Assembly (NCBI GenBank): GCA_030620125.1
Contig: JAUXFI010000071.1
Location: 1-9,051 of the forward strand
DNA from: Anaerolineae bacterium
Lineage (GTDB): Bacteria > Chloroflexota > Anaerolineae > B4-G1
Length of the DNA: 9,051 nt
Direction: 5' to 3'
Shown here: positions 6,578 to 6,978 of the stretch, piece by piece
Position numbering within the stretch: the first letter of the stretch is position 1
How the letters are laid out: every line of letters begins with the position of its first letter
The notes under the pieces: model-generated
The model's database searches: none
The model's input: only the letters and a program-made list of their open reading frames with translations
Told to the model about the DNA's origin: nothing
Position numbers and translations under genes: made by a program

Positions 6578-6652
6578 GGGGGGTGTTTACGGTAGAGGCA
6601 GTTTCTACGCCATCGGGCGGTCCCCCCCCCTCTAATCCCCCCCATAGGGGGG
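6578..6652. repeat. Homopolymeric C/G tracts in the ruvB-GH99 intergenic region
   Basis: G6 (6578-6583), C9 (6622-6630), C7 (6637-6643) and G6 (6647-6652) occur within 75 bp. C6-ATA-G6 (6638-6652) can form a tight hairpin just left of the mobile elements. It could act as a terminator for ruvB, but there is no T-run. The region 6544-6662 otherwise shows no gene. Long C runs are also places where sequencing errors are likely. Confidence 0.6.
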
Positions 6653-6662
6653 AGGTGGCAGG

Positions 6663-6956
6663 CAGCAATTCCCGTTTTGGGTGGCTAACATACCTTCCCG
6701 GTAACTACCCAGGCATAGAACCCTTGCGAAGGTTTGTGAGGAGATTTCAAGCCAGAAATGCTTTCGCCCACCAAAAACTGCCCTGTTGCCAGTGCTATTC
6801 GCAACCTTCGCAAGAGTAGATGGACGAACCCCTGGGTAGTTACCCTTCCCGGAAGCTATGACGATGCTTCTCTATCAAATTAGGCTATGATTCGACCAGT
6901 GTCGCCTAGCGCAACTGAATTTGGAGCTTCCGGGAAGGTCATAACGGGAATTGCTG
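6663..6956. mobile_element. Miniature inverted-repeat element (outer, interrupted), 8-bp target duplication
   Basis: The left end CAGCAATTCCCGTT (6663-6676) is the exact reverse complement of the right end AACGGGAATTGCTG (6943-6956). Direct repeats GTGGCAGG flank the ends precisely (6655-6662 and 6957-6964), as expected for a target-site duplication. The element carries no transposase or other convincing ORF, so it is a non-autonomous, MITE-like element. A second element (6700-6844) is inserted in its left arm. Removing that insert and one copy of its 6-bp duplication leaves 143 bp. It also restores ACCTTCCCGGAAGCT in the left arm, the exact reverse complement of AGCTTCCGGGAAGGT at 6925-6939. 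It lies between convergent ruvB and the GH99-like gene, ending 14 nt from the latter's stop codon. The parent transposase family was not identified. Confidence 0.85.
6700..6844. mobile_element. Second miniature element nested in the first, 6-bp target duplication
   Basis: Perfect 14-bp terminal inverted repeats, GGTAACTACCCAGG (6700-6713) and CCTGGGTAGTTACC (6831-6844), bound a 145-bp sequence. CTTCCC is duplicated immediately outside (6694-6699 and 6845-6850). A further 12-bp inverted repeat lies inside: CTTGCGAAGGTT (6723-6734) with AACCTTCGCAAG (6803-6814), so the RNA or single strand could fold into a long stem. No coding capacity is evident. The ends differ from those of the host element and the duplication length differs (6 versus 8 bp), so it was probably moved by a different transposase. 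Confidence 0.85.
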
Positions 6957-6978
6957 GTGGCAGGTTGAGAGCATACAA

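Follow-up and report, generated by a model that had tools for sequence, protein, structure and literature searches.

REPINs are usually described with a resident RAYT, and elements of the IS66 family are known by ends that start with GTAA and by an 8-bp target duplication. According to work on REPINs and RAYTs (Bertels and Rainey 2011, PMC3116915), REPINs join two inverted palindromic units across a steady spacer, reach high copy numbers and have RAYT-like neighbors. The accessible portion of a second source (PMC3733652) describes TIRtrons and TIRYTs, in which tyrosine transposase genes are flanked by families of inverted, sometimes self-complementary repeats, and also reports GTAG repeats in Chloroflexi. 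At the locus analyzed here, two hairpin cores that we call E2 and E4 share all four of these features with REPINs, and share tyrosine transposase genes with inverted flanking repeats with TIRtrons, TIRYTs and GTAG REPs. They differ from the former in carrying no GTAG tag and in lying inside shells of DDE type, and from the latter in being captured inside miniature elements (MITEs), which those portions of the text do not mention.

The window, by which we mean the whole stretch of DNA analyzed (a contig of 9,051 bp, probably from an uncultured member of the Chloroflexota), encodes in order pgk (recognized by eye), a PIN-domain protein, tpiA, a protein weakly resembling M50 peptidases (its match is under the cut-off), a family 4 glycosyltransferase, upp, ruvB and a GH99-like protein. 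The closest ruvB relatives are found in Chloroflexi and Anaerolineae MAGs, with 89%, 85% and 83% identity in loci L001, L002 and L003, respectively. In the interval between pgk and tpiA (1290-2141), the PIN-domain gene (1734-2141; PF13470) is preceded by a small ORF (1322-1693) with no Pfam match; as pgk and tpiA align nearly adjacent in L001, the pair, which resembles a toxin-antitoxin module, seems to have been either inserted or lost.

The elements of interest occupy the convergent intergenic gap between the 3′ end of ruvB (6543) and that of the GH99-like gene (6979). We consider it likely that they form a four-layer stack built by two insertion events, in which a MITE carrying E2 was followed by an IS66-type MITE carrying E4 that entered E2. 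In the first step, a 143-bp MITE with DDE-type ends (CAGCAATTCCCGTT, usually with a 9-bp duplication) that already carried the 93-bp REPIN-like core E2 would have landed after ruvB. In the second, a 143-bp IS66-type MITE with GTAAC ends, an 8-bp duplication and the core E4 would have entered E2 within its left arm. The locus would then record its history step by step, the first shell bringing the first core and the second shell carrying the second core into it, and this order can be checked against the duplications and an uninterrupted homologue.

The outer MITE spans 6663-6956 and measures 143 bp once the insert and one copy of the inner duplication are removed. Its terminal inverted repeats are CAGCAATTCCCGTT on the left (6663-6676, forward strand) and AACGGGAATTGCTG on the right (6943-6956, reverse strand), and over 17 nt (6663-6679 and 6940-6956) the two ends are 94% complementary. 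A direct repeat of GTGGCAGG flanks the element at 6655-6662 and 6957-6964. We searched for the exact left 14-mer and found it in 21 of 248 genomes, with 150 matches in G044 and 55 in G001, the nearest genome by ruvB, against four in all for the reversed pattern used as a control. Many of these are single-ended matches that lack a second end close by, and some fall within coding regions (e.g., L184, L185 and L194). From the 14-mer loci and 40 further stretches we assembled 28 distinct short outer-type elements, allowing at most two substitutions per end. Exact duplications of 9 bp flank 19 of them, one has 12 bp, one has 6 bp and seven have none, one of these seven being cut by its contig end. 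The 8-bp duplication proposed in the initial annotation is present in the window, while the norm of the family is 9 bp; the window's GTGGCAGG is compatible with a 9-bp GGTGGCAGG that lost a single G. An uninterrupted homologue was found in G042 (L199): it is 143 bp long, identical to the window's element at 127/143 positions when the flanks of the insert are joined, and bordered by a 9-bp duplication, GCCCCTATA.

A transposase fragment in L178, which ends near an outer-type end, showed no family at first look and led us to complete insertion sequences encoding a transposase of ∼450 aa, with matches in 24 of 297 genomes. The complete copy L218 agrees at 24/24 end bases and has a 9-bp duplication; L216 agrees at 20/24 with an 8-bp duplication, and L215, with one deviating end (CAGCAACTTC), at 19/24 with a 9-bp duplication. 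No duplication was visible at the insertion sequences of L210 and L212, and that of L213 is cut at its right end. Insertion sequences and MITE have the end CAGCAATTC in common and differ further in, where L218 reads TCA and the MITE CCG. The outer MITE family has the ends and the duplication length of an autonomous copy (9 bp in L218; the window itself shows 8 bp), and it shares duplications of 8-9 bp with L216 and L218. Three of the transposases were compared with curated NCBIfam models and stayed below the cut-offs, at best 20.5 against 152 bits for IS4_2 and 14.4 against 70 bits for ISAs1. As only weak matches to curated families were obtained, we leave the transposase as an unnamed DDE family near ISAs1/IS4, set apart from the known kin of the outer MITEs by falling under every curated cut-off tried. 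The transposase query had no match in G001, which holds 55 outer ends, and only a fragment in G044. Unlike known MITEs of DDE families, the outer MITEs have interiors exchanged between REPIN-like cores.

Several observations concern outer-type elements elsewhere. In L186 (G061), a 471-bp element (155-625) has both outer-type ends and an ORF resembling the start of the CAGCAATTC-type transposase (35% over 83 aa against L210, E 2e-11), a possible intermediate between insertion sequence and MITE. Two outer-type elements of 270-276 bp in G191 (L204 and L289) contain a GTAG pair and a long inverted repeat with palindromes of its own, possibly a case of further nesting. In G202, five contigs (C101, C178, C298, C317 and C425) start within ∼25 bases of an outer-type end, as is expected where an assembly breaks at a multi-copy element. 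In the window itself, positions 6622-6654, immediately left of the outer MITE, hold two C runs and then G-rich sequence, which could form a hairpin or reflect a preferred target.

The inner MITE lies on the forward strand at 6701-6843, with ends GTAACTACCCAGG...CCTGGGTAGTTAC, between exact copies of CCTTCCCG at 6693-6700, within the left arm of E2, and at 6844-6851. Its inverted ends are fully complementary over 14 nt (6700-6713 and 6831-6844). The initial annotation had read a 6-bp duplication, CTTCCC, and a length of 145 bp. The sequence taken alone permits either parse. We prefer the 8-bp reading, which makes the inner element 143 bp long like the outer one, because two related copies, L105 and L108, have exact 8-bp duplications and GT(A/T)AC ends. 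A BLAST search of 298 genomes with the whole stack gave matches in nine, with no more than two candidates scored per genome, the match in G059 being to E2. Among these, the closest relative of the inner element is L099 (G165), a 143-bp element at another place with 130/143 identical positions. L108 (G143) and L105 (G242) start with GTAAC or GTTAC, end with GTTAC and are flanked by exact 8-bp repeats, GCAGGAAG and ATTCAAAC, respectively. Nine inner-related loci were tried: the pattern identified both ends in five, two of which have a duplication, none was found in L099, L101 and L111, and in L100, L103, L109 and L113 the pattern did not delimit an element. Exact paired-end patterns matched nothing, for the outer element in viral contigs and for the inner one in genome or viral contigs, because exact ends within one length range were too strict.

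The inner element also matches IS66 by its GTAACTACCCAGG at both ends and its 8-bp duplication. Domain searches found IS66 in five of 13 and in 55 of 199 genomes, and 33 loci were inspected. A 1,560-bp IS66 in G120 (L159) carries GTAACTGCTCAGGCA at both ends, with no target duplication found; L174 has a matching right end only; and L116, a Pfam-confirmed IS66 remnant, has the right end ∼135 bp past its domain match, where the reading frame terminates, with the motif appearing a second time farther upstream. Altogether, the 12-bp motif of the inner ends matched five times in the 33 IS66 loci (98.7 kb), against ∼0.09 expected on equal base use, a count made after the L116 end had been noticed. 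The end was not seen in 30 of the 33 loci, so only a few IS66s match the inner MITE, and the domain search of 13 genomes found no IS66 in G165 or G143, both of which hold inner MITEs. Judged by its sequence, the inner element is an IS66-type MITE: like members of that group, it has GTAAC ends and an 8-bp duplication, is geneless and has an IS66 with ends of the same kind in a relative, and it is unlike them in that most of its interior is a core of a RAYT-associated type.

When the inner element and one duplication copy are removed and the flanks joined, both outer arms read ACCTTCCCGGAAGCT, as the initial annotation had reconstructed, and all strings quoted there are found in the sequence at their places. 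The later arrival was the IS66-type MITE, core included, as it splits an E2 arm that L199 shows unsplit. Two insertion events, their target duplications and their order can thus be read from the DNA, and the earlier proposal of two stacked miniature elements with a legible insertion order gains support from the relatives' copies and duplications. Its expectations of copies with target duplications elsewhere and of full-length insertion sequences with similar ends were both borne out in relatives, among other Anaerolineae. As far as the genomes searched can be read, these relatives hold both MITE families with their duplications, insertion sequences with similar ends and the uninterrupted outer homologue. 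The nested-MITE interpretation is therefore partly supported, right and at the same time incomplete, since each element encloses a hairpin module of 92-93 bp that had not been separated from its shell.

These modules are E4 (92 bp, 6723-6814, forward strand, ends CTTGCGAAGGTT...AACCTTCGCAAG) inside the inner MITE and E2 (93 bp, 6845-6937, forward strand, ends CTTCCCGGAAGCT...AGCTTCCGGGAAG) inside the outer MITE; the inner MITE interrupts E2 in its left arm. The ends of each core are inverted to each other and each is nearly palindromic; ends and length are constant, while interiors vary highly. Like REPINs, the cores consist of two inverted units that form a hairpin (z of −2.82 and −3.84) at a steady spacing. 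Classical REPs carry a GTAG tag, and none stands beside the E2 and E4 palindromes of the window. E4 pairs were found in 15 of 199 genomes, with 152 in G191, 59 in G075, 19 in G143 and 18 in G193, and E2 pairs in five of 297 genomes (one of 40 in an earlier search), the control giving 0 in both cases. A first E4 pattern matched nothing in 40 genomes because it admitted a gap of 35-65, whereas the real gap is ∼68. With patterns admitting 70-100 bp for E4 and 77-107 bp for E2, spacing was 90-93 bp in 28 of 35 E4 copies and 90-96 bp in the seven E2 copies outside G277. The genomes searched are often fragmented, and pattern counts are lower bounds because exact patterns were used; the copy numbers of up to 152 per genome take shelled and unshelled cores together. 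MITE ends were not seen around cores in G002 (L081, L082, L083 and L085), G046 (L328, L331 and L333) and G075 (L089 and L320-L324). In G059, L107 is a compact 37-nt hairpin made of an E2 arm and its complement (ACCTTCCCGGAAGCT-CTGACGA-AGCTTCCGGGAAGGT).

We then looked for a link between the cores and RAYT-like genes. A search for the Y1 transposase domain gave matches in ten of 13 genomes and none in three, including G143, which holds 19 E4 copies. In G191, L126 contains a RAYT-like gene (1486-2046) that matches PF01797 over the cut-off and NF047646 with 75.1 bits, under the cut-off of 80. Upstream of this gene, four tandem E4 without IS66 arms reach to 15 bp from the start codon; a fifth lies 8 bp past the stop codon. 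Using this protein as a query, we found relatives in 155 of 317 genomes. Three loci have the E4 9-mer on either side of the RAYT-like gene: L126, L238 (78% protein identity) and L240 (70%). In L243 (56%), the 9-mer lies downstream only. It occurs in nine of 60 RAYT locus records, of which at least three represent the same place twice. The E2 11-mer occurs in one of the 60, L259, with nine occurrences. By comparison, 1.25 Mb of control sequence contained E4 twice and E2 only as the copy in L002. E4 thus has candidate cognate RAYTs associated with the same repeat, at three loci on both sides and at L243 on one, and the case for E2 is weaker, with the 11-mer of L259. In L238 and L240, the E4 palindromes form compact hairpins. 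Spaced E4 pairs were not found in G088 or G178, genomes with E4 palindromes at RAYT-like genes, and the pattern found no E2 pair in G192, home of L259. In E4-rich G075, the Y1 transposase gene of L123 is not flanked by E4. These observations count against the reading preferred here, as do the core motifs missing from most RAYT loci, the sub-threshold NF047646 score of L126, the untagged E2 and E4 and, for the shells, the partner transposases not found in G165, G143 and G001 and the lack of a duplication at L159.

The association of palindromes with these genes is also seen beyond the two cores. Under a fixed criterion, paired near-palindromes were present at nine of the 30 best RAYT loci, two of which (L237 and L263) had already been seen in the survey that suggested the test, against two of 341 control pieces from ruvB loci and none of 32 IS66 loci. 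Under a second criterion, six of 23 RAYT loci had palindromes that match each other upstream and downstream of the gene, after seven loci cut by contig ends were left out, against 0/302 and 0/15 controls. At the level of sequence, then, cores occur without these shells and core palindromes surround some RAYT-like genes, and the best reading of the cores is as REPIN-like elements that MITEs have captured.

We weighed this reading against explanations that dispense with two transposition events. A fixed structured RNA, a regulatory region or a bidirectional terminator resembling transposons by chance would suit the position between the 3′ ends of ruvB and the GH99-like gene and the strong fold of the 310-nt stretch as single-stranded DNA (z = −7.34; none of 100 shuffles folded equally well), and the initial annotation had held that an absence of copies elsewhere, together with relatives sharing the unchanged 300 bp at this locus, would favor it. 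Over the 700 bp compared 3′ of ruvB, L001-L006 instead have unrelated sequence in all six cases, so the 300 bp are no fixed feature of the locus, and when pieces of the stack were compared by BLAST with 80 ruvB loci, the sole meaningful match was the E2 copy in L002. Given these six relatives and the absence of any Rfam match in the window at gathering score, we rejected this explanation; it is also contradicted by the copies scattered over unrelated sites of other genomes, target duplications included, and is extremely improbable. Recombination or template switching between repeats, or a misassembly, could also stack repeats without transposition, since the window is an entire contig, probably metagenomic, and short repeats can be misassembled. 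Both junctions nevertheless carry precise direct repeats of about family-typical length and both elements are full length at 143 bp, making such an origin very unlikely.

The remaining account keeps transposition and leaves RAYTs uninvolved: the elements would be plain nested MITEs, the cores being family interiors and their near-palindromic ends subterminal transposase sites. Both cores of the window do have a MITE shell. Moreover, a direct repeat of at least 8 bp lies within 36 nt of five of the 35 E4 copies, including the window's, where chance would give ∼0.7; leaving the window aside, three of the remaining four start with GTA-type arms. Part of the E4 copies are by this evidence IS66-type composites, and some copies without a clear shell may be decayed ones; no such repeat was seen within this distance at the other 30. 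Against this account, E2 sits in two unrelated shells, the outer type in the window and L199 and IS66-like arms in L329 (G059), where ten of the first 13 end bases agree and no exact duplication was seen, and it has no visible shell in G002 and G046. Tandem E4 stands beside a RAYT-like gene without IS66 arms, and in three genomes RAYT-like genes have the E4 palindrome at their flanks. Because the enclosed cores also occur without that shell and resemble RAYT-associated repeats, treating each element as a plain MITE is not right, and we consider this account unlikely.

Under the preferred reading of REPIN-like cores captured by MITEs, DDE transposases would move the shells in trans, and the cores would owe their movement to RAYTs, traveling as single-stranded hairpins and leaving the target unduplicated. 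Each chimera would go back to the entry of a core into a shell, after which the two spread together; insertion into the MITE by a RAYT and deletion between the ends of an insertion sequence are both possible routes of entry. In the combinations observed, the outer-type shell surrounds E2 or a GTAG-tagged core, and the IS66-type shell surrounds E4 or E2. Palindrome pairs of the CGACTTTAGTCG type, tagged GTAGT...ACTAC, are present in 17 of the 28 outer-type elements (in G001, G191, G143 and G220), while seven have a CGCGATTT palindrome (G044), one has E2 and three have neither by this count. None of the 60 RAYT loci yielded the GTAG-type palindrome, and the GTAG cores are therefore read as REPINs only from their form.

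We tentatively propose that MITE-REPIN chimeras have arisen repeatedly and form a class of miniature elements with two mobility systems. In Anaerolineae, at least three different REPIN-like cores might have been taken up, in mixed combinations, by at least two unrelated shells of DDE type (the IS66 type and the CAGCAATTC type), a possibility we raise with some reservation. If so, either a DDE transposase or, through the core, a RAYT could mobilize the same 143 bp of DNA, and the shell may let a REPIN outlive its own RAYT or travel without it. REPIN-like cores exchanged between IS66-type and other DDE MITEs would gain a second route of spread, and MITE-borne cores would make REPIN persistence and movement between hosts testable. 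The kinds of component are already known; the chimera itself was not seen in the literature searched, which leaves its absence from print unproven. REPINs inside MITEs are not described in the titles and abstract beginnings covered, nor in the available parts of PMC3116915, PMC3733652 and PMC3189936, and a search by end sequences returned unrelated titles only.

Other RAYT-like genes have different palindromes in a similar paired layout (L122, L130, L133, L140 and L144). Across L237-L266 and L119-L148, many RAYT-like genes are flanked by near-palindromes of 12-17 nt that differ from one gene to another and in some cases form compact hairpins, providing material for a study of RAYT-REP co-evolution.
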